From Betaproteobacteria bacterium (GTDB taxonomy: Bacteria > Pseudomonadota > Gammaproteobacteria > Burkholderiales > Rhodocyclaceae), in NCBI GenBank assembly GCA_020621405.1, contig JAHRYN010000005.1, positions 1 to 64,000 of the forward strand: a stretch of 64,000 bases of DNA, written 5' to 3'. How positions within the stretch are numbered: the stretch's first letter is position 1; every line of letters starts with the position of its first letter. The notes below the pieces were generated by a model, which made no database searches, had not been told where the DNA came from, and worked only from the letters and a program-made list of their open reading frames with translations. Positions 2,433-18,685 of the stretch are shown here, one piece after another. The position numbers were made by a program, and so were the translations under genes.

Positions 2433-4241
<1,809 letters not shown>

Positions 4242-4256
4242 CGCACTGGCGCAGGT

Positions 4257-4805
4257 TCATTCGATGCGAATGAACCCGTCCCGGTTGGGCATGCGTATCG
4301 CCGGCAAAGTGTGCGCATCGATCACGGCATCGGCCTGAACGATGCCGTTGGCGTGCAGCAGCCACGCGCACAATGCATACACTTCGTCTGCCTCGAGCGT
4401 GCCCGGCGCATTCATCGGCTTGGTCCGCCGGATGAAATCGAACAGCGTTGTCGCGTACGGCCAGTAGCTGCCTATCGTCTTGTCTGCATCGACACTGGTC
4501 AGCGGGCGCGTGGCGCCGGTCAGTTCGTCGGCGCTGCCGCCGCGTCCGTCGCGGCCGTGACAGCCTGCGCAATGCTGCGCGAACAGACGCGCTCCGTCGG
4601 CGACCGTACCGCGCCCCGGCGGCAAACCGCGCCCATCCGGAAATACGTTGAGCAATTGCCGGCCGAGCAGGTCAGGATCGGCGGCAACGCCCAGCTGCGG
4701 CCGGTCGGTCGTCGGTGTCGCGGGTGCCGTGCACGCCGGCAGCAGTGCCAGCAGCACCAATGCAAGCACCCGTTCAGTAGCTGTGCGATACCAGTCCGTC
4801 ATCAT
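4257..4805 (-). CDS. Monohaem c-type cytochrome, sulfite dehydrogenase electron acceptor (lipoprotein)
   Basis: 182-residue exported cytochrome c. A short hydrophobic N-terminal segment ends in a lipobox-like LLPAC, followed by one haem site (CAGCH) and a likely axial Met in TKPMNAPG. It overlaps the 3' end of the molybdenum sulfite dehydrogenase gene by 32 nt, so the two are translationally coupled. It should act as the SorB/SoxD-like subunit that takes electrons from sulfite oxidation. It has only one CXXCH, unlike classic dihaem SoxD. Two adjacent ATG codons (4805, 4802) are possible starts. Confidence 0.7.
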   Translation of the reverse strand: MMTDWYRTATERVLALVLLALLPACTAPATPTTDRPQLGVAADPDLLGRQLLNVFPDGRGLPPGRGTVADGARLFAQHCAGCHGRDGRGGSADELTGATRPLTSVDADKTIGSYWPYATTLFDFIRRTKPMNAPGTLEADEVYALCAWLLHANGIVQADAVIDAHTLPAIRMPNRDGFIRIE

Positions 4806-6045
4806 CGACCGCCCAGGCAACGATTGCGTTGTAGTGGAAATAACCCGCCCGTCCACGCTCTGCCAGCAGTGCCACCCGCTCCGGCTGCACATGTCCGGCT
4901 TCATCGGTAGCACGGCTCTTCAGCAGGGCCGGCCTGCCATCCCAGCGCCATGGCATGCGAAAGCGCGTGAAGCAGCGGGGCTGCGCCGGTGACTGCAGCA
5001 CCGCATCGGCCCAGGTCATGCCGCCGTCGACCGATACCTCGACCCGCGCGATGCGGCCATGACCGCTCCAGGCAAGCCCGCTGACCTGATGAACGCCGGA
5101 TCTGCTCAAGGCCTGTCCGTGCGATGGCGACGTGATCAGGGACTTGCAGTCCATCGTGAAGGTGAACTGCCGCGCCTTGCCCGATGGCTGCAGCTCGGTG
5201 TACTTCGATGTTTCGTTGCGCGACATCACCGGCTGGTCGGCGAGTTCGAGCCGCTGCAGCCATTTCACATGCAGCACGCCTTCCCAGCCGGGCACGATCA
5301 GGCGCATCGGGTAACCGTTCTCCGGACGCAGACGCTCCCCGTTCTGGTACAGCGCCACCATGCAGTCGTCGCGCATCTTGGCCAGCGGAATGCTCATGTT
5401 CATCGCACCGGCATCTGCGCCCTCGGCGATGACCCAGCTCGCGCTGTCATCGACGCCCGCCTCGTCGAGCAGGATGGACAGCGGCACGCCGGTCCACTCC
5501 GCACACGACACCAGGCCATGCACCGAGCCGACCGGCCGCTGTATGGGTTCGGCATGCCAGCCGGCGTTGCTGTTGCCGCCACATTCGATGAACAGCATCT
5601 GCGAGCGCATCGGATAGCGCAGCAGCGACTTCATGTCGAAGCTCAGCGGCTGGCGCACCCGGCCGTGCACGGTCAACCGGTGGCGTTCCGGATCGATCTG
5701 CGGAACGCCGTTGTGGTGCCGTTCGAAGTGCAGGCCGTTCGGCGTGACCGTGCCTTCCAGTTCTTCCAGCGGCGTGAAGGACACGCCATTGCCTGCGACC
5801 GCGCGGTTGGAACTGATGCGCCGTGCGGTATAGCGCTCGTACGGGGAAGGCTGGCCATAGGTGGAAAACGGCTGTCCGGGCACGTGCAGCCAGGGCAGAT
5901 CGCCGGGGTTCTGCGCAAGGGTGTCCGCCGCACTGGTTGCGCCGGCAAGTATCAGCCCGCGACGCAGGAACCGCCGTCGCTCCGGCAGTCCGCTGCCGGC
6001 GGCCACCGGAAACTGTTCGAGCGACTCGTCGCGACTGCGCTTCAT
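4774..6045 (-). CDS. soxC: Molybdopterin-dependent sulfite dehydrogenase, SoxC/SorA family, Tat-exported
   Basis: 423 residues. A twin-arginine signal (RRRFLRRGLILAG) sits around residues 23-35, so the enzyme is folded with its cofactor before export to the periplasm. The oxidoreductase-Mo domain holds the molybdenum-ligand Cys in LVSCAEWTGVPL and substrate-site motifs such as IECGGNSN. The C-terminal Mo-co dimerisation domain starts near residue 290 with VSGLAWSGHGRIARVEVS. It oxidises sulfite to sulfate and passes electrons to a c-type cytochrome, here probably the overlapping downstream gene. No soxAXYZB is in the window, so a stand-alone SorAB-like role is more likely than the full Sox cycle. 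Confidence 0.82.
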   Translation of the reverse strand: MKRSRDESLEQFPVAAGSGLPERRRFLRRGLILAGATSAADTLAQNPGDLPWLHVPGQPFSTYGQPSPYERYTARRISSNRAVAGNGVSFTPLEELEGTVTPNGLHFERHHNGVPQIDPERHRLTVHGRVRQPLSFDMKSLLRYPMRSQMLFIECGGNSNAGWHAEPIQRPVGSVHGLVSCAEWTGVPLSILLDEAGVDDSASWVIAEGADAGAMNMSIPLAKMRDDCMVALYQNGERLRPENGYPMRLIVPGWEGVLHVKWLQRLELADQPVMSRNETSKYTELQPSGKARQFTFTMDCKSLITSPSHGQALSRSGVHQVSGLAWSGHGRIARVEVSVDGGMTWADAVLQSPAQPRCFTRFRMPWRWDGRPALLKSRATDEAGHVQPERVALLAERGRAGYFHYNAIVAWAVDDDGLVSHSY

Positions 6046-6053
6046 GCCCGCCT

Positions 6054-7157
6054 CTACAGGAAAAGGGTCAGTACGCCGGTGTAACCGTACAGCTGGTCAT
6101 GCGAAATTTCGCCGCCGGCGAAGAATCCGGCTATCGGCAGGCCGGGAAAGACCTCCTCCAGCATTGCCGGTTCCGCGTTGTCGTTGCCGAACATATTGGC
6201 ACCGCGGGCGGCACAGGATACGTAGAGTGCAGCACGCGGCGGCTGTTCCAGCGAGTCCCGCAGTTCGTGCAGCGTGCGCATCATGTCGACGCGGGCACAG
6301 TCGGCGTCGCGCCGGAAGAACTGGATGCGCTGACCAAGGTGGACCGACTCGCTGACCGCGAGCAGTCCGTTTGCCGGATCGATACCGGTGACGTTGCGTA
6401 CGCGAAACTCGGCATTGTCGCGGCCCGCCACGCCAAGACCCGGCAGGATGTAGCGAGCCGCCCGCCTCATGTCCTGGCCGAGCGAGGTGCCGGCAGCTTC
6501 GAGAAACGCATCCAGCGCCGGACGCCCGTCGATTTCAGCGATCACGTTCTGGTCGCAGGCGGTGATGACGCGCACCTCGCCGACTGCGCAGCAGCCCTGC
6601 GTCAGGCGGGTGGCGATGGCGACCTGTTCATTGAAGGCGACACCGCTGATGCCGCCGTAGAAAGCGCCATTGGCGATCATCGGCGCTTGTCCGCGGGCGA
6701 TTGCCAGACCACCGGTGACGAAGCCGCTGGAGACCTTGGTGGCCATGTCGGCAACCAGATCAGCCATGTCGGGTGTGTTCGGATCGGCGTGAACCACGGC
6801 GAAATAAGGTTGTTCGCGTGCCTGGTCGGTGCCCAGAGCATTGGGCAGGCGGTCGCGCCCGGAAAAGACCTGGAAACTGCCATCGGGCAGGCTTGCCACC
6901 AGCAGTGCCATGCCCGGATGATTCTGTGCACCGGTGGCACGGCCGATCACGCCGAGCGAACTGGTGCCGACCCAGTCGCGGATGCCGGTCAGCATCGTGA
7001 GCCGCTCGACCATGGCGTCGACATCGCTGCCGTACTGGTCAGTGAAATAGGCGAAACCGAGATTGGCGCCGTCGGGTATGTCGAGCGCAGCCAGCGCCCG
7101 GTCCATCGCGACCGGCCAGTCTTCGTGGAAGGCGGTGCTCGCGGCGAATCTGTGCAT
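6054..7157 (-). CDS. FIST-domain sensory protein (FIST N + FIST C)
   Basis: 367 residues covering the whole FIST_N and FIST_C architecture, a small-molecule sensing module predicted to bind amino acids or similar ligands. FIST features include the Gly-rich VGTSSLGVIG in the N half and the C-terminal stretch around AALYVSCAARGANMFG and LPIAGFFAGGEI. It has no signal peptide or membrane segment, so it should be cytoplasmic. It starts 12 nt after phaM and ends 8 nt before the sulfite dehydrogenase gene, so all four genes are probably one transcript. The ligand is unknown. Confidence 0.8.
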   Translation of the reverse strand: MHRFAASTAFHEDWPVAMDRALAALDIPDGANLGFAYFTDQYGSDVDAMVERLTMLTGIRDWVGTSSLGVIGRATGAQNHPGMALLVASLPDGSFQVFSGRDRLPNALGTDQAREQPYFAVVHADPNTPDMADLVADMATKVSSGFVTGGLAIARGQAPMIANGAFYGGISGVAFNEQVAIATRLTQGCCAVGEVRVITACDQNVIAEIDGRPALDAFLEAAGTSLGQDMRRAARYILPGLGVAGRDNAEFRVRNVTGIDPANGLLAVSESVHLGQRIQFFRRDADCARVDMMRTLHELRDSLEQPPRAALYVSCAARGANMFGNDNAEPAMLEEVFPGLPIAGFFAGGEISHDQLYGYTGVLTLFL

Positions 7158-7169
7158 GTGGTGAGTCTG

Positions 7170-7577
7170 TTATCCGGCGCTTGGCGGCGGTGGCGGAGGA
7201 TCACTCGCCGCCGGTGCGCCAGGCGGGGTTGCCGGGTTCTGCATCAGGGTCCATGGCCACATTGCGGCATTGCCGAAAGCCTGCATCGGGTTGTGGGACG
7301 AATCGGGCTGGGCACTCCCGGCCTGGCTGGCGCCTGCGGCCATGGCCTGCATTGTGGCCAGCGTCGCGCGCTGCATTTCCAGGCCTTGGATGCTCGTCTG
7401 CAGCATGCCGAGGTTCATGCGCAGCCAGCCCTCGACTGCCTTGAGGTCGGCGATGCGCTTGTCCAGTTCGCCGACATCCAGCGTCGGCGTGACGAAGCCC
7501 GGCACCGGGAAGGGCATCTGCCCCCATACCGATCGGAGAAATTCCATCGGGTCGTACTGTGAAGAATCGCCGGCCAT
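7170..7577 (-). CDS. phaM: PhaM-type polyhydroxyalkanoate granule-associated protein
   Basis: 135 residues. The N half carries the PhaM-like core: a WGQMPFPVPGF segment, then DVGELDKRIADLKAVEGWL and a Leu/Met-rich helix (NLGMLQTSIQGLEMQR). In Cupriavidus, PhaM activates PHA synthase and tethers granules to the nucleoid with a Lys/Ala/Pro-rich tail. Here that basic tail is absent; the protein ends in a short acidic/Pro-rich run (ASDPPPPPPSAG). The start is set by GGAGG 7 nt before ATG 7577. It is first in the FIST-soxC-cytochrome operon. Confidence 0.65.
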   Translation of the reverse strand: MAGDSSQYDPMEFLRSVWGQMPFPVPGFVTPTLDVGELDKRIADLKAVEGWLRMNLGMLQTSIQGLEMQRATLATMQAMAAGASQAGSAQPDSSHNPMQAFGNAAMWPWTLMQNPATPPGAPAASDPPPPPPSAG

Positions 7578-7652
7578 GTCGTCACCTCCGTGGATCGATG
7601 TGAGCCAAGCATAGCAGCGGGGATGTTTGGAGGGGCAGCGCATCCGTCGTGT

Positions 7653-7686
7653 TCAAAAAGAAAACGCGGTCTCTCGAGACCGCGTT
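7653..7686 (-). terminator. Intrinsic terminator downstream of the hybrid kinase gene
   Basis: Perfect inverted repeat: an 11-nt arm AACGCGGTCTC at 7663-7673 and its complement at 7676-7686. The A-rich run to the left (7655-7664) becomes a T-rich tail on the minus strand. It lies about 100 nt past the stop of the kinase gene and before phaM, separating the two minus-strand units. Confidence 0.75.
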
Positions 7687-7699
7687 AAGGAGACACAAC

Positions 7700-7780
7700 G
7701 TGCACAACGATTTCATTGTCGTGCTGCGGGAAGGCTCGCGGCAATCGTCCGTTCGGACTAGGCCGCGATTCAGTCCGTGA
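7700..7780 (+). CDS. Possible 26-codon small ORF
   Basis: GTG start with AAGGAG 7 nt upstream (7687-7692) and 26 codons ending in TGA; the product begins VHNDFIVVLREGSRQS. The ribosome site abuts the terminator hairpin on its right. It is on the strand opposite to both flanking genes and no promoter is obvious. It could be chance; I report it only because of the strong Shine-Dalgarno. Confidence 0.2.
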   Translation: MHNDFIVVLREGSRQSSVRTRPRFSP

Positions 7781-7786
7781 TCCTGC

Positions 7787-9655
7787 TCAGGTATTCGCTG
7801 CCGTGGCCTCGCGCAGCTTGAACTGGATCAGCGTGCGCAGCTTGGCCGGCATCACCGGCTTGAGCAGCAGGTGATGGCCGAGGTCGCGCGCTTCCTCCAG
7901 TCGTTCGGGCGTGGCGCTTCCGGTGACCAGAATGGCCGGTATGTCGATGCCGAAATGCTTCCTGACCGCGGCAACCACCTGCGGACCGATCTCGCCGTCG
8001 CGCAACTGGTAGTCGGCGATGATCAGATCCGGCGGGCCGGATCTGTCGGCGATCTGTGCCAGGGCTTCCGCTGCCTGGCCGGCGGTCAGCGTCTGCGCGC
8101 CCCAGCTGCCCAGCAGGGCGGCCATGCCATCGACGATGCTGGCTTCGTCATCGATTACCAGGATGCATCGTCCATTGAGGTCGGCGTGGCTGCGCTCGGT
8201 ACGTGCCGCGGCAGCGCGCACGACCGGCGCACGTCCCAGCGGCACGTCGATGCGGAAAACGGTGCCGCGGCCCGGGCGCGAGGCGAGCCGGACCCGGTGA
8301 GCCAGCAGCGCGGACAGGCGTTGTACGATGGACAGACCGAGTCCCAGTCCCTTGCGGCGGTCGCGTTCGGCGTTGGCCAGCTGCACGAATTCCTCGAAGA
8401 TGCGCGTCTGATCATCGGCTGCGATGCCCAGGCCGGTGTCCCACACTTCGAAGCGAAGCCCGTCGCCGTGCAGCCGGGTACTCACCAGTACGCCGCCAGC
8501 GCGGGTGTAGCGCATCGCGTTCGAAATCAGGTTGCGCAGTATGCGTTCAAGCAGTACCGGATCGCTGCGCACCCAGACGTTGCGTGAACGCATGCGAAGT
8601 GCCAGGCCGCGATCGAATGCCTCGGGTTCGAAGTCCATGCGCAGTCGGTCGAACAGCGCAGTCACCGACACATCAGTGACTTCCGGCTTCACCTTGCCGG
8701 CGTCGATCTTGGAAATGTCCAGCAGCTCGTTGAACAGCCCCTCGAGCGCCTCGACCGAACTGCTGATGCTGGTCACCAGGTTTGCAACGTCGGGTTCATG
8801 TGCCTTGGCCGACAGCGCAGCGGCGAACAGGCCCATCGCGTGCAGCGGCTGGCGCAGGTCGTGGCTGGCGGCCGCGAAGAACTGGCTTTTCGCGCGGCTT
8901 GCCTGGTCGGCCCGGTCCCTGGCCTGCAGAAGTTCGACGTTCTGCGCCTCGAGCCGTTGGCTCAGCACCTCGTTGGCGTAGCGGCTGCGCAGTGCGCGCT
9001 CGATCAGCGCATTGAAACTGCGGCCGACCTTCCACAGCGCGACCAGCAGCACGGATACGATGAACGCGATCAGCAGGTCGTAAGGTCCGCCCTCCCACAG
9101 GTAGCGCGCGATCACCGGCAGCAGTGTCGCGAACAGGAATGTGTAGTAGCTGGGCAGGTGCATGGACGTCAACGCCACGGCGACACCGCACACCGACACC
9201 AGCAGCGACATCAGCACGATCTGCTGCTGCGGTGCGTCCGGGCTGAAGAACAGCCACAGCGTCGAACTCCACAGCACGCCGGATACCGCGGCGCCGACCA
9301 GCCAGTAGGTGCCCCAGCGCCCGGCGTCGTCAGCCGCCGGACCGGTACGGTTGTAAAGGCGGAGCAGGATCAGGCGGGAAATCTGGTTGGCGATCGAAGC
9401 GATGAACCACAGCGCCACCGACCACAGCGGGAAGCGCGAAAAGACGGTCAGCGTGACCAGTACCGCGCCGAGCACCTGGCCGCCGAAGGCGGTGCCGAGA
9501 TTGGCGTAAAGCATCTCGATCTGTGTGGCCCGGACCTGACTGTCCAGCGCCGCCTGTTCTGCCGGGGCGAGTCGTGCCGCCGCATCACCGCGTTCGCTGG
9601 TGAGCGACTCGATCGTGGTCTTTTCGACGGGGGGCAGCGTCGGCAAGGCACTCAT
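7787..9655 (-). CDS. Membrane hybrid sensor histidine kinase with C-terminal receiver
   Basis: 622 residues. About six hydrophobic segments lie between residues 55 and 215 (the N-terminal sensor). A coiled linker precedes the HisKA dimerisation domain with the phosphoacceptor His in SHDLRQPLHAMGL. The HATPase_c domain follows (NLISNAMRY, DTGLGI, GLGLGLSIV), then a receiver domain in the last 120 residues (ILVIDDE, phospho-Asp in IIADYQL, LLLKPV). The SHDLRQPL H-box subfamily is often paired with LuxR-type regulators, and such a gene overlaps its start by 4 bp. The signal sensed is unknown. Confidence 0.88.
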   Translation of the reverse strand: MSALPTLPPVEKTTIESLTSERGDAAARLAPAEQAALDSQVRATQIEMLYANLGTAFGGQVLGAVLVTLTVFSRFPLWSVALWFIASIANQISRLILLRLYNRTGPAADDAGRWGTYWLVGAAVSGVLWSSTLWLFFSPDAPQQQIVLMSLLVSVCGVAVALTSMHLPSYYTFLFATLLPVIARYLWEGGPYDLLIAFIVSVLLVALWKVGRSFNALIERALRSRYANEVLSQRLEAQNVELLQARDRADQASRAKSQFFAAASHDLRQPLHAMGLFAAALSAKAHEPDVANLVTSISSSVEALEGLFNELLDISKIDAGKVKPEVTDVSVTALFDRLRMDFEPEAFDRGLALRMRSRNVWVRSDPVLLERILRNLISNAMRYTRAGGVLVSTRLHGDGLRFEVWDTGLGIAADDQTRIFEEFVQLANAERDRRKGLGLGLSIVQRLSALLAHRVRLASRPGRGTVFRIDVPLGRAPVVRAAAARTERSHADLNGRCILVIDDEASIVDGMAALLGSWGAQTLTAGQAAEALAQIADRSGPPDLIIADYQLRDGEIGPQVVAAVRKHFGIDIPAILVTGSATPERLEEARDLGHHLLLKPVMPAKLRTLIQFKLREATAANT

Positions 9656-10326
9656 GTCGACGAGCCGGGGGCGCCGAGCTGCAGCCCGATGCGGCTGGCC
9701 GCCAGTACCGCCTGGGTGCGGTTGGCGGCACCGAGCGCCTTCAGGATGGCCGTGATGTGTACCTTCACGGTGCCCTCTGCCAGATTCAGCTCGCGGCAGA
9801 TTTCCTTGTTCGGCTTGCCCTGGACCATCAGTGTCAGCACTTCGGCCTGGCGCTCGGTCAGCCCGATGTCCGACGCGGTCTGCGGCCGGCGTGGAACTTC
9901 CTCCTGCCGCGGCGCGCCCAGACCGAATTCACCGGCGATCGCCTGTCGCGGCACATAGACACCGCCCGACAGCACCAGCCGCAGGGCACCCAGCAAAACT
10001 TCGTTGGTGCTCGATTTCGGAATGAACCCCATGGCGCCTTCGTCGAGCGCTGCGACGACGGTGTCCGAGTCATCGAAACCGGACAGCACGACGATGGGCA
10101 GCGCCGGTTGCGCCGAGCGAAAGCTCTGCAGTGCGCTCATGCCGCGGCACCCGGGCAGTGTCAGGTCGAGCAGCACCAGATCGAGATCCGGATGCTGTTC
10201 GGCCAGCGCCAGACCGGCGTCGCAGCCGGGCGCGTCGTAGATGTGGACGTCCGCCGCAAGACCGGGCAGTACGTGTCGCAGCGCTTCGCGGATCAACGGG
10301 TGATCATCGACGATCAGTATCTTCAT
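9652..10326 (-). CDS. LuxR/NarL-family response regulator (AgmR/MxaB-like)
   Basis: 224 residues: receiver domain (ILIVDDHPLIREAL, phospho-Asp in LVLLDLTLPG, Lys in FIPKSS) and a C-terminal LuxR helix-turn-helix (LTERQAEVLTLMVQGK, NLAEGTVKVHI). Its stop overlaps the start of the hybrid kinase gene by 4 bp, so the two are a coupled two-component pair. Related regulators (AgmR/ErbR, MxaB) control PQQ-dependent alcohol oxidation; transfer of that role here is an inference from family resemblance. The ATG at 10326 is preceded by AAGG and begins exactly at the receiver domain. Confidence 0.85.
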   Translation of the reverse strand: MKILIVDDHPLIREALRHVLPGLAADVHIYDAPGCDAGLALAEQHPDLDLVLLDLTLPGCRGMSALQSFRSAQPALPIVVLSGFDDSDTVVAALDEGAMGFIPKSSTNEVLLGALRLVLSGGVYVPRQAIAGEFGLGAPRQEEVPRRPQTASDIGLTERQAEVLTLMVQGKPNKEICRELNLAEGTVKVHITAILKALGAANRTQAVLAASRIGLQLGAPGSST

Positions 10327-10557: not shown

Positions 10558-11217
10558 TTGAGCAGTCTGCTCATTGTCGAAGATCACGCACTGGTGCGCG
10601 AGGGCATGGCGCAGACGCTGACTCGCCTGGGCAGCGACTGGCGGATCATCGAAGCACCCGATGCGACCAGTGCGATTGCGCTGATCGATGAGGGCGTCGA
10701 GTTCGATCTGGTCGTCACCGACCTCATCCTGCCCGGCATGAACGGCTTTTCGCTGCTGGCGATGCTGCGCGAGCGGGATCCGTCACTGCCCGTGGTCGTG
10801 GTGTCGGCGCTGTGCGACAAAGTGACTGTCTCCCGCGCGATGCGCCAGGGAGCGTCGGGCTTCGTATCCAAGTCGGATTCCGGTGACCAGCTGATCCAGG
10901 CGGTCCGCACTGTGCTTTCAGGCGGCCTCTACACGCCGCCTGAAAGACGGACTCCCGCGCCGCGCATCGGCCGCACTTCCGCCATCTGCGCGTCCTCTCC
11001 CACGGTCGGGCACGGCCTGACCAATGCACAGACGCGCGTGCTCGCGCTGCTGGTGGAAGGTCGCTCGAACCGGGAAGTGGCTGAATCGCTGGGGCTGGCC
11101 GAAGGCACCGTCAAGGTGCACGTTACGCGCATCTTCCGCGCGTTCAAGGTCGGTTCGCGTGCGCAGCTGCTGACGCTGCTGTCGCACAACGGCAGCCGCA
11201 GGCCGGGCGCCGGCTGA
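10558..11217 (+). CDS. LuxR/NarL-family response regulator
   Basis: 219 residues with receiver (LLIVEDHALVREGM, phospho-Asp in LVVTDLILPG, Lys in FVSKSDSG) and LuxR helix-turn-helix (LTNAQTRVLALLVEGR, GLAEGTVKVHV). It is transcribed away from the neighbouring kinase/regulator pair. The start is TTG 10558 with GGGGAG 6 nt upstream. No dedicated kinase lies downstream, so it may share the hybrid kinase at 7787-9655. The two regulators resemble each other and may be paralogues. Confidence 0.85.
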   Translation: MSSLLIVEDHALVREGMAQTLTRLGSDWRIIEAPDATSAIALIDEGVEFDLVVTDLILPGMNGFSLLAMLRERDPSLPVVVVSALCDKVTVSRAMRQGASGFVSKSDSGDQLIQAVRTVLSGGLYTPPERRTPAPRIGRTSAICASSPTVGHGLTNAQTRVLALLVEGRSNREVAESLGLAEGTVKVHVTRIFRAFKVGSRAQLLTLLSHNGSRRPGAG

Positions 11218-11251
11218 GCCGGGCGCCGTCCGGCGCGCCCGGTTGCACGTG

Positions 11252-11956
11252 TCAGTGAGTGGTGCCGACCGACGCTGTATCCGACGTCGGCTGCAGGGGT
11301 GCGTGGATGCCATCTTCCATCGTGTCTTCGGCGTCGATATCGACGTCCTCGTGCTCGATGCGCAGGATGTCGAGGATGGGCGCCGCAACCCGGCGGCAGG
11401 CATTGGCTAGCGGTGACGGCAGATTGTCCGGAATGCGCTTCTGCAGCAGCAGCTTGGACGACGAGATCGCGAACACCGGCTCCAGGATGCGGTTGCGGTA
11501 GTTGCCCAGCTGGCTCTCTATCATGCGGTCGGCCGCCTCGCGTGCCCACGGATTGGTCGGCCACTGCATCGGCAGCGCCAGCGCGCGCGGAAAAGTTTCC
11601 AGATCCTGCTGCACGGTACGGATGTCTTCGTGCGAATCGCGGAAGGGCAGCAACACCAGATGCGCCAGACTGTAAAGATGACGGTCCATGTCGCTGCGGT
11701 TCGCACCGCCGTCGATGACGCCCATCCACTTGTTCAGTCCGCGCACCTTTTCGACCACCTTGGTCAGCGCCTCGCGTGATCGCGCGTCGGCGGTCAGGTA
11801 GCGCCGGCCTTCGGGATCCAGCGGCTCGCGCCCCAGATCGGTGAGTACGCAGACCGAACGCTGGTTCAGCAGCCCCAGCCCCTGGCAAAGCATGTGCGAC
11901 AGCGTGGTCTTGCCGGTGCCGCCCTTGTTGCCGATGACACAGATGATTTCTGCCAT
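11252..11956 (-). CDS. Orphan ParA/MinD-like P-loop ATPase
   Basis: 234 residues starting almost at a deviant Walker A (VIGNKGGTGKTTLSH), the signature of ParA/MinD/CobQ ATPases. A Walker B-like VIDGG follows near residue 80. There is no ParB partner beside it, so it is not an obvious plasmid or chromosome partition pair. The C-terminal 40 residues are acidic and low in complexity. A good ribosome site (GGGAG, 7 nt spacing) precedes ATG 11956. Cargo and partner are unknown. Confidence 0.7.
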   Translation of the reverse strand: MAEIICVIGNKGGTGKTTLSHMLCQGLGLLNQRSVCVLTDLGREPLDPEGRRYLTADARSREALTKVVEKVRGLNKWMGVIDGGANRSDMDRHLYSLAHLVLLPFRDSHEDIRTVQQDLETFPRALALPMQWPTNPWAREAADRMIESQLGNYRNRILEPVFAISSSKLLLQKRIPDNLPSPLANACRRVAAPILDILRIEHEDVDIDAEDTMEDGIHAPLQPTSDTASVGTTH

Positions 11957-14317: not shown

Positions 14318-14406
14318 CGCGGACGGATTGTAGGCATGCGCGCGTCGGCACGCCAAAAGCGGCGATAATCCACCCACTCCAATCGTCGCTTCATTGCAGC
14401 CTCCCG

Positions 14407-14511
14407 ATGACATTTCCCCCTGTGCCGGTCCGGTGCGCCTGCGCACCGGCGGAGACCGCCCCGATGACCTGCCCGGCCCGCTGCATGCGTGCGGCGGGTG
14501 GCGCTCGATGA
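14407..14511 (+). CDS. Possible 34-codon Cys-rich upstream ORF
   Basis: ATG 14407 opens a 34-residue frame whose TGA overlaps the ATG of the flavin reductase gene (ATGA). The peptide has four Cys (CAC and CPARC). The exact start/stop overlap suggests translational coupling or a leader peptide, but no strong ribosome site is seen and codon use is uninformative at this length. Confidence 0.3.
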   Translation: MTFPPVPVRCACAPAETAPMTCPARCMRAAGGAR

Positions 14512-14999
14512 GCAATCCCGAGCGGGACAGCCGTTCCTTCCGCGATGCACTGGGGCTGTTCGCGACCGGCATCACCATCCTGACCGCACGTGCGCCCGGT
14601 GGCGAGCCGGTCGGCCTGACCGTGAATTCGTTCAATTCGGTCTCGCTGGAACCGCCGCTGGTGCTGTGGAGCCTGATGCTGGGTTCGCCCAGCGTGGAGG
14701 CCTTCCGTACCTGCTCGCACTATGCGATCCATGTGCTGGCCGACAGTCAGAAGGCGTTGTCGCAGAAGTTCGCCGGCGCCCGCGAACAGCGTTTCGCCGG
14801 GCTGGACACGACCGACGGGCTGGGCGGGGCGCCGCTGATCGAAGGCTGTCTCGCGCGCTTCGAATGCCGCAACGACGTCCAGTACGCCGGTGGCGACCAC
14901 CTGATCTTCGTCGGCCGGGTTGAGCGCTTCGAACGCAGCGTTGGCCAGCCGCTACTGTATTTCGGCGGTGCCTACCGCACGATAGGGCGCGCGGACTGA
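14508..14999 (+). CDS. Flavin reductase-like, FMN-binding protein
   Basis: 163 residues of the flavin_reductase_like fold: GLFATGITILTA, then the FMN-site stretch GLTVNSFNSVSLEPPLV and the later GGDHLIFVGRVE. Members reduce FMN/FAD with NAD(P)H, often feeding a two-component monooxygenase; none is next to it here. It is transcribed divergently from mutY. ATG 14508 starts right before the domain. It is the last core gene before the AT-rich island. Confidence 0.8.
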   Translation: MSNPERDSRSFRDALGLFATGITILTARAPGGEPVGLTVNSFNSVSLEPPLVLWSLMLGSPSVEAFRTCSHYAIHVLADSQKALSQKFAGAREQRFAGLDTTDGLGGAPLIEGCLARFECRNDVQYAGGDHLIFVGRVERFERSVGQPLLYFGGAYRTIGRAD

Positions 15000-15261
15000 G
15001 TCCGGTTCCGGGTCGCAGCGAGATCGGGAACAGACGGCTGAAATGTGAGACAGGCACCATAAACCTGCAGTAGCGACGAAGAAATTCGTTGCATTATGCC
15101 TACCCAAAATCGCACTTTCGTCCGGATGAAATTTAAGGAAAGAGCGCATATTTTTGCAGTTTGTCCCCAAAAGCCCCATGCCCATCGAAAGCGAATTGGC
15201 GCGCTCAAACTGGGAGCGTTGATGATTCAGTGAAAGAAGACATGATACCGAGGAGCTGAGT
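15000..15261. other. Left junction of the accessory island, non-coding
   Basis: 262 nt without a credible gene. Composition shifts from GC-rich to AT-rich inside this stretch. It holds a small hairpin with a GAAA loop (15073-15092) and one copy of a 12-nt direct repeat (15227-15238). Any promoter for the NYN gene should lie here, but I cannot assign clear -35/-10 boxes. Confidence 0.5.
15227..15238 (+). repeat. 12-nt direct repeat, left copy (TCAGTGAAAGAA)
   Basis: The identical 12-mer recurs at 18489-18500. The two copies bracket the NYN-NACHT cassette. This could mark an insertion boundary or be chance. Confidence 0.4.
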
Positions 15262-15996
15262 GTGCCGGCCTTATTGGTGCTTGTTGATTACGACAATGTC
15301 GACCGAAGTCATACGGTAGCAGGGCCGGTTGGCCTGGCGAAAATGCTCGTCACACTGCTGCCAAACACGATTGTCGCCCGGCATCAAGGGGTGACTGTGC
15401 GGCTATATGGGGGTTGGCGAAACAACGGAACGTTGACGAATTTTGCCCAAAATCTAGTACCGGACATTCATCGTCAATCCCCAACCGTTGTGGCGATTTC
15501 GAATTCAGGTTTTTTGCAGAACGTTCGGCTGACAGTAGAGCTCGCTCAGGGTCCGATTGGCTCAAGCACTTCGCTCGAACAAACCTACGTAAAAAATAGA
15601 GGATTACGCAATTTTCGATCTTGCAGTTCACCACGACCTGGGTGCGCGAATCCTTCATCGTGCGGCCTGCAGATGTTTTCTGGTCTAACGCATGCAACAC
15701 CATGTGGCAATCACAAATGCAATTCGAAGCTGGCTGATGTATTTACTCGCGACGAGCAGAAAATGGTCGATACGCTGATTGTTGCTGACATGGCGCATCA
15801 GGCCTTTGCCGCCAAGGCTTCCGATATTGTTGTTGTGTCTTCTGATACCGATATGTGGCCTGGTGTTTTGTTGGCTCTTCGCGCCGGTTGTGCGGTAACA
15901 CATGTACATACGAAACGCGGTCTACGGACTCAACAGCACTTGATGAATACGCTTGCCGGGCAGTTGTCTCGCAATTATCAGCAATTGAGCGTTTAG
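15262..15996 (+). CDS. NYN-domain (PIN-like) nuclease with Cys-rich insert
   Basis: 244 residues. The fold is read from acidic motifs of NYN/LabA-like RNases: an N-terminal strand LVLVDYDNV (D9, D11), a central KMVDTLIVADM (D170) and VVVSSDTDMWPG (D195, D197), which together form the metal site of PIN-like nucleases. Between them, residues 118-155 hold five Cys and a His (C121, C128, C134, C148, H151, C153), which could bind zinc and is not part of the basic NYN core. GTG start with AGGAG 6 nt upstream. The next gene begins 9 nt after the stop, whose TAG is part of that gene's ribosome site, so both are made together. Composition is AT-rich relative to neighbours, suggesting transfer. A toxin or effector role is an inference. 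Confidence 0.75.
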   Translation: MPALLVLVDYDNVDRSHTVAGPVGLAKMLVTLLPNTIVARHQGVTVRLYGGWRNNGTLTNFAQNLVPDIHRQSPTVVAISNSGFLQNVRLTVELAQGPIGSSTSLEQTYVKNRGLRNFRSCSSPRPGCANPSSCGLQMFSGLTHATPCGNHKCNSKLADVFTRDEQKMVDTLIVADMAHQAFAAKASDIVVVSSDTDMWPGVLLALRAGCAVTHVHTKRGLRTQQHLMNTLAGQLSRNYQQLSV

Positions 15997-16005
15997 GAGA
16001 TTTGT

Positions 16006-18303
16006 ATGGATGCCAGTGAATTTAAACGCGTACTGACTGCATTCGCTGATGTTCCTTCAGATGTTGATGTGCGGCTTGGGAAGGTCGTCGCCCAAATCCG
16101 GGACGAGGTCCTTGATGTTGATATTGCCTACTCGAAAACCCCGGATCAGCAGCTCCTAGTCATTGAGAATGAGCAACAATATCCGGCACGGGTTTGGTTG
16201 TTAAATCGCGTTGCTCGGTTGCCGCAATTGGCCGATCGATTGATTGCCAGCACGGCCCTAACCGCTGAGGTGGCTGCCCGGTCTCCATTCGTAACCCCGT
16301 CAGGAAGTATCTCTCAGAATCTATCTGAAACAAGTGATTCATTCGCGGATGTGCAAGTTTCCAATGCCGTCGAAGCACTGTTGGAAAGAGCCAATAGCCC
16401 GTTTCCGGGTGCGACTTCCGTTCTTTACGTTACGTCCGATGCAGGGGAGGGAAAAACTACGGTAATCGGACATGCGGCACGCCTTCAGGCTCAGCGATTT
16501 AAAGAAAAAAAAGTTGGATCACTCGTTGTTCCTATTCCTCTGAGTGGAAGAGCATTCTTGAATTTCGATGATGCGGTTATTGCCGCTCTAGTCAATAAAT
16601 TGCGCTTCAACTATCTTTACTTTGACGCATTTATAGAGTTGGTTCGCATGGGGGCCGTTGTTCCAGCATTTGATGGATACGAAGAAATGCTGGTTGAAGG
16701 ATCGAAAGGGGAGGCTATCTCTGCCCTCGGTAATTTAGTTCAGGCATTGAATTCATCCGGAACGATTTTTATCGCAGCGCGAAGGGCGTTCTTTGATTAC
16801 CTAAGCTTCAAGACACAGGCGCGACTGCTGGATGCCATTGGAGATCGTTCAGCATCGTTTTCTCGCCTTGAGATTTCGAGATGGAACAAAGAGCAGTTTT
16901 GCGAGTACGGAAAACTACGCAAGGTTGAGCAGCCGGAAGATATCTATCAGACGGTTTCCGCCAGGCTGGGAACGGATCACCCTCTTTTAACTCGCGCTGT
17001 CTTGGTAAGGCGTCTCTATGACGTGGCGGGCGGGTGTAAAGCTCAATCCGAGCTGGCGGCAATGCTCGGGAGCAATGCACATGATTATTTCTATACTTTT
17101 GTCGATGCGATAGTAAAACGCGAGGCTTCAGAGAAATGGCTGGCAAACGTTACCGGTGAGGTAATGGAGCCTCTACTAAGCATTGATGAGCACCACGAAT
17201 TGTTGGCTCAAATCGCGCAAGAAATGTGGCAGTCGTCGGTGAACTCACTTCGGTATGATGTTCTTGACGTAATTGTCGATATTTTTACTGATGGCAGAGG
17301 CAAGAGCGCAACTATCAACCGGCAGATCAAAGAACGCATAAAGCAGCACTCTTTGCTGGCCTCGGAGACAACAAAGGGCCTCGCTGTCTCCTTCGATCAT
17401 GAGGACTTCCAGAATTTTTATCTTGGTGAGGCTCTCGGCCGTTTATTGGCGAAAATGGTTCGGTCTGACTTACAGACATTCATTTCGGCAAACTTATTGG
17501 CGACCGCTACCATAGAACAGTCGGTTCAGTATCTCAAAAGATGTCATGCTGACATGTCTGCGGTAGCTACCGCGCTGATGACCATAAATTCGTCCGAGAC
17601 CGGATTCTCCTTCTGCAAGGAAAACTGCAGCGCACTAGCTATTCGTGTTGCTGAGTGCACACCTAATTTCGGCGAGCCGCTTCTATTGCAAGCCATGTTT
17701 TTTCCAGTGGATGTGCTTGCTGGTAGGCATCTTCGGAAGATGGTTTTCGAGCGTTGCCATTTCCAACCTACATCCACATCGAAAAGCACTTTGGCAGAAC
17801 TTGAGTTTAACTACTGTGAGTTTGAGAGAATCGAGATTGACAATGCCGAACGAGTTTTCGAAGGCTGCATGTTTTCGAATTGCACAATTGACTCTCTGGT
17901 CCTGAACAATGAAGACGACTACTCATTCAATCCGGTACAAATCGCCGAGTGGCTAGAAGGCGCTGGTGCCAGTTTCGGCGGTTCTGCGGCGATGGCCGCA
18001 AGCGGCGCAACACAAAAAGACGAACGCCTCAAAGTTCTCGAACGGTTTTTGCGAGTTTTTTTGCGGAGCACGCAAGTTGATGAGGAGATAATCCGCCTCC
18101 GCCTTGGCAACGCAGCAACCCCAAGATTCTTTGATGAAGTGCTTCCCGTGCTTTTGGATAACGGGGTTCTGGAGGAAGTGCCCTGGAAGGGCCGGGGCAT
18201 TCAGCGTCGTTACAAATTGATGCGTCAAATGTCCGATATCAGCGATGCCTTGGAGGTCGCGCATGGCTCCTTCGACAATTTTCTGTCTGGCTTGCGGCGT
18301 TAA
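16006..18303 (+). CDS. NACHT/STAND-type P-loop NTPase with pentapeptide-like and winged-helix C-terminus
   Basis: 765 residues. An N-terminal 120-residue region of unknown fold precedes the NTPase. Walker A is DAGEGKTT (145-152), Walker B AFDGYEE (D223, E226-E227), and a sensor-1-like TIFIAARR lies at 253-260. SFDHEDFQNFYLGEAL (462-477) matches the His/Phe helix motif that closes the NACHT winged-helix region. Residues 577-635 show spaced F/L-x-x-C-x-F units like pentapeptide repeats. Residues 672-750 look like a winged helix (LLDNGVLEEVPWKGRG). STAND NTPases act as ligand-triggered switches in immunity and signalling. Paired with a nuclease gene, this could be a defence module; that is inferred, and no cognate trigger is known. 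Base composition is foreign to the neighbourhood. Confidence 0.75.
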   Translation: MDASEFKRVLTAFADVPSDVDVRLGKVVAQIRDEVLDVDIAYSKTPDQQLLVIENEQQYPARVWLLNRVARLPQLADRLIASTALTAEVAARSPFVTPSGSISQNLSETSDSFADVQVSNAVEALLERANSPFPGATSVLYVTSDAGEGKTTVIGHAARLQAQRFKEKKVGSLVVPIPLSGRAFLNFDDAVIAALVNKLRFNYLYFDAFIELVRMGAVVPAFDGYEEMLVEGSKGEAISALGNLVQALNSSGTIFIAARRAFFDYLSFKTQARLLDAIGDRSASFSRLEISRWNKEQFCEYGKLRKVEQPEDIYQTVSARLGTDHPLLTRAVLVRRLYDVAGGCKAQSELAAMLGSNAHDYFYTFVDAIVKREASEKWLANVTGEVMEPLLSIDEHHELLAQIAQEMWQSSVNSLRYDVLDVIVDIFTDGRGKSATINRQIKERIKQHSLLASETTKGLAVSFDHEDFQNFYLGEALGRLLAKMVRSDLQTFISANLLATATIEQSVQYLKRCHADMSAVATALMTINSSETGFSFCKENCSALAIRVAECTPNFGEPLLLQAMFFPVDVLAGRHLRKMVFERCHFQPTSTSKSTLAELEFNYCEFERIEIDNAERVFEGCMFSNCTIDSLVLNNEDDYSFNPVQIAEWLEGAGASFGGSAAMAASGATQKDERLKVLERFLRVFLRSTQVDEEIIRLRLGNAATPRFFDEVLPVLLDNGVLEEVPWKGRGIQRRYKLMRQMSDISDALEVAHGSFDNFLSGLRR

Positions 18304-18328: not shown

Positions 18329-18611
18329 CCGCACCACGTTCTTGCTGCTTGCTAGCGTTACTGCTCCGGCTGAGAGTGACCAATTAGCGTAATTTAATTA
18401 GGTCGGGTATCTCCGCAGGGCCAGCAATCTGCGCCTCAACTGCCATTCAACTAAGTTGACTCCAACGTCCGAAAAGGCCGAAAAACGGTCAGTGAAAGAA
18501 AAACCCCACCAGATATTGATGGGCCTTAATCGATTTGGATAGGAACGATATCTCTGCAATCACTGCAAATTATGCTGTCAGTCTCAAAATGAGGCAGGAA
18601 GCGGTGGTGGC
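18329..18611. other. Right flank of the accessory island, non-coding
   Basis: About 280 nt with no credible gene. It contains a short palindrome CAACTAAGTTG (18448-18458) and the right copy of the 12-nt repeat (18489-18500). It ends at the 3' end of tRNA-Gly. No integrase remnant and no duplicated tRNA 3' end were seen. Confidence 0.5.
18489..18500 (+). repeat. 12-nt direct repeat, right copy (TCAGTGAAAGAA)
   Basis: Same 12-mer as 15227-15238, about 190 nt beyond the end of the NTPase gene. Confidence 0.4.
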
Positions 18612-18685
18612 TGGAGCGGGTGATGGGAATCGAACCCACGTATGCAGCTTGGGAAGCTGCCGTTCTACCATTGAACTACACCCGC
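18612..18685 (-). tRNA. tRNA-Gly (anticodon CCC)
   Basis: On the minus strand the acceptor stem GCGGGTG pairs with CACCCGC. The D-arm segment is TAGTTCAATGGTAGA, the anticodon loop is TTCCCAA (anticodon CCC, reading GGG), and the T arm contains GGTTCGATTCC. The 3' CCA is encoded (18612-18614). Its 3' end faces the AT-rich island, the side on which elements often integrate. Confidence 0.93.

Follow-up and report, generated by a model that had tools for sequence, protein, structure and literature searches.

A two-gene cassette in the 64,000-nucleotide stretch of a Betaproteobacteria bacterium genome analysed here (the window; contig JAHRYN010000005.1, positions 1 to 64,000) probably encodes an anti-phage system in which a nucleoside triphosphatase (NTPase) of the NACHT type, resembling the NOD-like receptors (NLRs) of animals, would control a separately encoded NYN-family ribonuclease (RNase) effector acting in trans. 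A probability of roughly two in three can be attached to this reading. The original prediction, made from the window alone, had proposed a candidate defence system, an interpretation now supported by the adjacency of the two genes in their relatives, by the enrichment of defence genes around them and by the fold predicted for gene 2. The two genes are:

15262-15996, plus strand: gene 1 (protein P0001), 244 amino acids, GTG start, a putative metal-dependent NYN-family (PIN-like) RNase

16006-18303, plus strand: gene 2 (protein P0002), 765 amino acids, a NACHT/STAND NTPase predicted to be an NLR-like switch with a putative sensor

The earlier description of the pair as a low-GC operon with a 9-nt gap between its genes and a tRNA gene at one side proved correct throughout. 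The cassette has a GC content of 49.7% compared with 64.4% for the rest of the window, and a tRNA-Gly(CCC) gene lies at 18612-18685. Cassette GC is likewise below that of the flanks in all 40 loci measured (of the 55 described next), the difference exceeding 5 points in 28 of them.

The gene pair is nearly obligate. Scanning one genome per species recovered 55 relatives of gene 2, 54 of them matching over at least 90% of the protein, with best-segment identities of 34-67%. Three loci (L002, L005 and L006) are apparently the same as L011, L051 and L055 and were counted once, while near-copies (L010 and L014 of L009, and L031 of L032) were kept among the 55 but dropped from both alignments. The NTPase alignment also omits L021, whose NTPase is split into several frames, and the NYN alignment omits L035, L042, L046 and L059, where the NYN gene is absent or partial. 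Using a NYN profile built from five sequences, three of which come from loci among the 55, a NYN gene was found adjoining the gene-2 relative in 53 of the 55 loci, bearing out the expectation that homologues of the two genes would co-occur. Fifty of these NYN genes are full-length, on the same strand and just upstream of the NTPase, two are partial (L046 and L059) and one is divergent (L056, 7048-7872, minus strand), the only such arrangement seen among the 55 loci. In L035 the contig ends where the NYN gene would lie; the remaining locus, L042, is considered below. In L024, two NYN-like open reading frames (ORFs; 5810-6424 and 7058-7990) lie upstream of one NTPase, possibly a duplicated effector. 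The divergence of the two proteins is correlated (r 0.877 for pairwise identities across 47 loci, the highest value in 2000 permutations being 0.166), a correlation to which kinship among the hosts contributes. A conserved third gene was considered and rejected, as, at the cut-off applied, the next largest cluster of neighbours occurs at 7 of the 55 loci and is hsdM-like by reading. A more distant sister pair with the same gene order is found at L007 (genome G388), whose proteins match profiles built without them (NYN E 7.3e-11, NTPase E 9.5e-20). Among 274 genomes of the same class as L007, three others gave matches, all short and weak, and the NYN profile found nothing at those three loci.

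The fixed arrangement of the pair, in which the small nuclease gene closely precedes the NTPase gene, would also suit a toxin-antitoxin or addiction-like module that stabilises mobile islands and prophages, with the NYN protein as the toxin and the large NTPase as its controller. The PIN proteins include classic toxins such as VapC, and the prophage and island locations described below fit this explanation. However, it is quite improbable, given that the partner is a full NLR-like switch and no small antitoxin, that the cassettes are enriched beside defence genes, and that one locus (L042) keeps its NTPase without an adjacent NYN gene, which is unexpected if a toxin drove retention.

On the evidence of its structural model, gene 2 is an NLR-like NACHT switch, in which the following regions can be distinguished:

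16006..16362, plus strand: N-terminal region, amino acids about 1-119, with an invariant W64 and without a Pfam match; a guessed contact surface for the NYN effector

16411..17454, plus strand: NACHT module, amino acids about 136-483, with Walker A (G147-T151), Walker B (D223-E227), a sensor-like R259 and a winged-helix motif (F463-H465-F468)

17680..17925, plus strand: short pentapeptide-like beta-helix, amino acids about 559-640, related to part of Hailong HalA; a putative sensor region

18022..18303, plus strand: C-terminal helical domain, amino acids about 673-765, provisionally termed winged-helix-like from the secondary structure of the model

The Walker A (DAGEGKTT) and Walker B (FDGYEE, of the DGxDE type) motifs and the NACHT His/Phe helix (FDHEDFQNFYLGEAL) are present as originally read, and residues G147, K150, D223, E226, E227, R259 and H465 are identical in all 52 aligned relatives. 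A comparison of the gene 2 family profile with one of 20 proteins matching PF05729 aligned 365 columns (between columns 129 and 541) with a probability of 98% and an E value of 6.8e-14, placing the DGYEE of Walker B against DGFDE and the FDHEDF helix against FSHKTI. The controls gave 1.6% for gene 2 against 30 RecA proteins, 0.1% for NYN against NACHT and 36% for NACHT against RecA, a value that two P-loop families may give. Pfam itself recognises nSTAND_NTPase5 in 9 of the 52 relatives and Pentapeptide_4 in 31. An AlphaFold2 model of gene 2 (predicted local distance difference test, pLDDT, 86.9; predicted template modelling score, pTM, 0.80) was compared with the PDB using Foldseek, which placed NLRC4 first (E 1.9e-10), followed by others such as NLRP2, NOD2 (5.7e-9), NLRP9 and NLRP3 (9.1e-8), with Cdc6/ORC proteins ranked after the NLRs. 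This is the order of matches expected of a STAND ATPase. Scans of amino acids 1-135 with PADLOC (version 2.0.0), Pfam and other family libraries recognised no effector domain, and no PADLOC match to gene 2 was better than E 0.032. The beta-helix matches pentapeptide proteins such as MfpA and Qnr, and the HalA model partly matches 41 of the 52 relatives (best 2.5e-12). An ion channel was considered on the strength of this last match and rejected, as in P0002 the match is confined to the beta-helix stretch (amino acids 574-647), scores far below the cut-off (33.6 of 250 bits) and occurs in a protein without a transmembrane-like segment (highest 19-residue hydropathy 1.35).

From its sequence, gene 1 is classed as a NYN nuclease and putative metal-dependent RNase, with the caveat that there is no significant match to a solved structure. 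It carries aspartates at D9, D11, D170, D176, D195 and D197. The five originally listed (D9, D11, D170, D195 and D197) lie at the positions then given and are kept in 45-49 of 49 aligned relatives; D170, D176, D195 and D197, together with Q166 and K167, are identical in all 49, D9 in 48 and D11 in 45. An insert with four cysteines, of which C134 and C148 are found in 49 of 49 relatives, C128 in 48 and C153 in 43, is probably a zinc knuckle within the nuclease. Of the two folds that had been foreseen, NACHT in gene 2 was upheld by both Foldseek and profile comparison, whereas NYN in gene 1 found support in Pfam (28 of 49 relatives, best E 1.7e-8) and not by any significant match in the PDB. When 10 relatives were checked singly against the curated Pfam NYN cut-off, seven scored over it, one under it and two gave no match. 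The AlphaFold2 model of gene 1 has a pLDDT of 94.9, and against viral models (BFVD) its top match is a LabA-like/DUF88 protein, with a probability of 0.99 but an E value of 0.017, a NYN protein coming ninth. Searching the PDB by sequence with gene 1 gave no useful match. PADLOC matches gene-1 relatives weakly with HEC-09 (11 of 49, best E 5.7e-5) and with 'NYN, LabA-like' (9 of 49, best E 1.8e-5), and its matches to P0001 itself are partial (52 residues).

The defence context of the cassette is strong, and the enrichment of defence genes that had been anticipated is present. It was assessed for 44 cassettes (of the 55 loci) in 43 genomes under a model of random placement, with contigs treated as having no ends and genome sizes rounded. 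HSDR_N or GmrSD_N lies within 10 kb of 9 of the 44 cassettes, compared with 0.96 expected (P 1.8e-7). Considered separately, HSDR_N lies within 15 kb of seven (0.77 expected, P 7.7e-6), GmrSD_N within 5 kb of four (0.24 expected, P 7.9e-5) and N6_Mtase, among the matches listed, within 15 kb of at least seven (1.57 expected, P 6.9e-4), while RecA, used as a control, lies within 15 kb of one (0.32 expected). In four loci (L038, L039, L040 and L062) the pair is located between hsdS- and hsdR-like genes, inside a Type I restriction-modification (R-M) operon, and the end of hsdS overlaps the start of the NYN gene by 4 nt in L062 and by 1 nt in L040. By reading, RhuM-like genes are also present at the hsd loci of L038 and L039, that of L038 corresponding to PADLOC PDC-S05. 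The cassette of L047 lies downstream of QatA-, QatC- and QatD-like genes (PADLOC E 4e-211, 2e-45 and 7e-88, respectively), that of L009 is near a GmrSD-like gene, that of L012 is beside PDC-S06 (2.8e-206) and that of L041 is beside a Type III methyltransferase (3e-153). Among ten selected neighbour genes submitted to PADLOC, two gave no match; a wider set of 78 genes from 49 loci, restricted to the nearest genes, gave PADLOC counts dominated by hsdS models.

Some further neighbours are worth recording. Directly downstream of the L047 cassette, 10754-11419 probably encodes, by reading, a C-terminal portion of an RNA ligase resembling RtcB, and one of the 78 neighbour genes matches Pfam RtcB at E 1.2e-87. 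In a Rhodocyclales-type genome (L002), two minus-strand ORFs beside the cassette (4118-5271) resemble, on our reading, DUF1828- and DUF6978-type proteins.

The company of DNA-targeting systems (Type I and Type III R-M, GmrSD and the Qat genes) raises a second explanation, namely that the NYN protein cuts invading DNA, making the cassette an NTP-dependent, restriction-like nuclease and not an RNase alarm. PIN-like folds include DNases. In addition, a DNase effector is described for another bacterial NACHT protein, bNACHT25, in the available part of PMC12169576. Nevertheless, DNA cutting seems unlikely: of the NYN proteins tested biochemically, the nearest are RNases, as far as the accessible text of PMC11346440 goes, and no modification gene is consistently linked to the cassette, so that self-DNA would need another safeguard.

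Under the preferred reading, that of an NLR-like switch controlling an RNase, the absence of a recognised effector domain from the gene 2 chain, coupled with the constant presence of a neighbouring nuclease gene, makes activation of the NYN protein in trans the simplest interpretation. The beta-helix and winged-helix-like region at the C-terminus of gene 2 would sense either an invader or damage suffered by a first-line system. Sensing may then be followed by NTP-driven opening and oligomerisation of gene 2, by analogy with NLRs and with bNACHT proteins as these are described in the available part of PMC12169576. The activated switch would recruit or license the NYN protein in trans, probably through physical contact with the conserved N-terminal region of gene 2, and the NYN protein would cut RNA in a metal-dependent manner, halting phage replication. 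The host cell would most likely be lost in the process, as in abortive infection. For those copies inside Type I R-M operons, and for those only, we propose that the cassette probably acts as a second line of defence, occupying the position held by PrrC.

Several characterised systems share part of this architecture. Both the bNACHT antiphage proteins and the metazoan NLRs (NLRC4, NOD2 and NLRP3) possess, like gene 2, a NACHT module with Walker A and B motifs, a winged-helix His motif and a C-terminal sensor-like region. According to the portion of PMC12169576 available, bNACHT proteins have their effector domain at the N-terminus of the same chain, apart from clade 14, whose effectors are not readily discernible; here, in contrast, no effector domain is recognised in the NTPase chain and the nuclease is supplied by a separate gene. 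The C-terminal part of gene 2 also contains a pentapeptide-like beta-helix and no leucine-rich repeats. For gene 1, the closest comparison is the NYN RNase associated with a type III-B CRISPR system of Bacteroides fragilis, with catalytic residues D13, D118 and D143 and a D13A variant that does not cleave RNA; this enzyme is proposed to trim CRISPR RNA (crRNA) and is reported not to be directly active in defence (PMC11346440, accessible text). D9, D170 and D195 parallel these three residues in order, and the spacing of the last two is identical (170/195 and 118/143). However, gene 1 differs from both this protein and the LabA/DUF88 proteins in that it carries a conserved insert with four cysteines and has a NACHT protein as its fixed partner.

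The PrrC-PrrI system, in which an anticodon nuclease is encoded within a Type I R-M operon, offers a parallel for the copies found in hsd operons. PrrC guards restriction and fires when restriction is inhibited, and RhuM-like genes are present at some PrrC-like loci, as stated in the part of PMC3710099 that is available. Similarly, four loci here place what is proposed to be an NTPase-controlled nuclease inside hsdMSR, two of them with RhuM-like genes. The proteins themselves are unlike, as PrrC joins an ABC NTPase and a HEPN domain in one chain whereas NACHT and NYN occupy two; no HEPN or ABC model is found among the Pfam matches of either gene family. Most of the cassette copies examined also lie outside hsd operons. 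Hailong, which the available text of PMC13275509 describes as a HalA membrane channel with a HalB partner, shares with gene 2 the beta-helix stretch only; P0002 has no transmembrane-like segment and its partner gene encodes NYN, not HalB. The likeness to PADLOC HEC-09 and 'NYN, LabA-like' is weak and concerns gene 1 only, gene 2 being unmatched.

The cassette probably moves horizontally, and its spread is patchy. Of 199 genomes of the family, two carry gene 2, one of them its own, and the same two carry gene 1; of 398 genomes across the phylum, four match gene 2, again including its own. The relatives are nonetheless distributed among Pseudomonadota, Acidobacteriota, Bacteroidota, Planctomycetota, Verrucomicrobiota, Gemmatimonadota, Myxococcota and other phyla, although some of these labels may be wrong because many relatives are metagenome bins. 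The tree is only partly host-like, with 17 label changes where 10 would suffice, a result that the metagenome bins weaken. By eye, tail genes place L044/L095 and L096 in prophages, L094 adjoins tail genes and L097 is near an integrase-like ORF. Three of the five loci on viral contigs have an intact NYN gene beside the NTPase, one (L096) has a split NYN gene and one (L094) begins at the NTPase. In L096, a P2-like prophage, the NYN gene (7286-7998) is split into two overlapping frames and the NTPase is intact.

A number of results weigh against the cassette being an NLR-like, NYN-armed defence system. P0001 itself falls just below the Pfam NYN cut-off (20.6 of 24.2 bits), and Foldseek found no PDB match for its model better than E 0.016, none of the 50 matches listed being named NYN; the inserts of gene 1 may explain this poor matching, an explanation that is unproved. 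Pfam NACHT (PF05729) matches none of the 52 gene-2 relatives at E 1e-3, and the template modelling (TM) scores of the gene 2 model to NLRs are modest, 0.43 being the highest among the 50 matches listed, for which the unlike C-terminal domains may be responsible. One locus is a true exception to the pairing: L042, a Cloacimonadota bin, has an intact NTPase (7900-10253) without a NYN gene beside it. Searches of plasmid and phage-record collections by tblastn with four versions of gene 2 (P0002, L043, L044 and L007) found no homologue. Finally, for 35 of the 44 cassettes no hsdR or GmrSD gene lies within 10 kb, and the cassette of the window has ordinary neighbours, standing alone outside any defence island. 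As a side observation on L042, its orphan NTPase may use another effector.

The last two of these results, the copies distant from hsdR and GmrSD and the position of the window's copy between flavin reductase-like and thiS/thiG-like genes, are what would be expected if the pair served RNA processing or stress regulation, with no immune role, and were merely mobile. We consider this very improbable, as against it stand the extreme patchiness of the pair (2 of 199 genomes of the family and 4 of 398 of the phylum), its insertion between hsdS and hsdR in four loci and its carriage by prophages.

The surroundings of the cassette in the window bear on how it came to be there. The flanking features are:

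14394-14999: flavin-reductase-like ORF (named by reading), the left neighbour of the cassette

18612-18685, minus strand: tRNA-Gly(CCC), bounding the inserted stretch on the right, with its 3' end towards the cassette

Beyond the tRNA gene, to the right of the cassette, lie thiS-like and then thiG-like ORFs (names by reading). In a congener (G641, locus L105) the distance from the end of the reductase to the tRNA is about 310 bp, compared with about 3.6 kb in the window, and this genome therefore shows the site without the cassette; among the 12 further genomes of the genus compared, G641 alone has a readable reductase flank. In two further loci of the genus (L102 and L104), neither reductase nor cassette is found in the 0.8 kb beyond the tRNA. 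Integrase-driven insertion into the tRNA gene was considered and rejected: comparison of the window with the congener site found no att-type repeat of the tRNA 3' end at the other side of the cassette, and the inserted stretch, on reading, contains no integrase-like ORF. The cassette is flanked by a perfect 12-bp direct repeat (15227-15238 and 18489-18500, 3262 bp apart), which may be a target-site remnant or due to chance. In L105, about 0.6 kb of extra sequence separates tRNA-Gly from thiS, so both sides of the tRNA are variable in the genus. A scan of the locus for promoters and terminators performed no better than on shuffled sequences. Elsewhere on the window's contig there is a second thiG-like region (G000:C8:82968-83833), and similar second matches occur in other genomes of the genus.

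The suggestion that this pair was undescribed has held: none of PADLOC, Pfam and NCBIfam has a name for such a system. A full-text search of the open literature, judged on titles, the openings of abstracts and selected passages, with supplementary tables outside its scope, found no paper describing a bacterial defence system that combines NYN with an NTPase of the NACHT or STAND type, although a code-named candidate may exist. Defence by NACHT proteins together with a nuclease is already known; the split, NYN-armed version appears to be new. A broader proposal, put forward tentatively and at slightly under even odds, is that these cassettes form a new and widely spread, two-protein branch of bacterial NLR-like immunity, in which a NACHT sensor-switch recruits a zinc-knuckle NYN RNase in trans, much like an inflammasome split from its effector, and which serves, within Type I R-M operons, as a failsafe upon the failure of restriction.

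Bacterial NACHT proteins are related to the inflammasome sensors as ancestors or cousins, and those described in the available part of PMC12169576 have either an effector in the same chain or none that is discernible. If the reading advanced here is correct, a conserved pair with its nuclease in trans would provide a small, genetically separable system for modelling the licensing of an effector by an NLR. It would also connect STAND immunity with NYN RNases and, in a layered defence, with Type I restriction.

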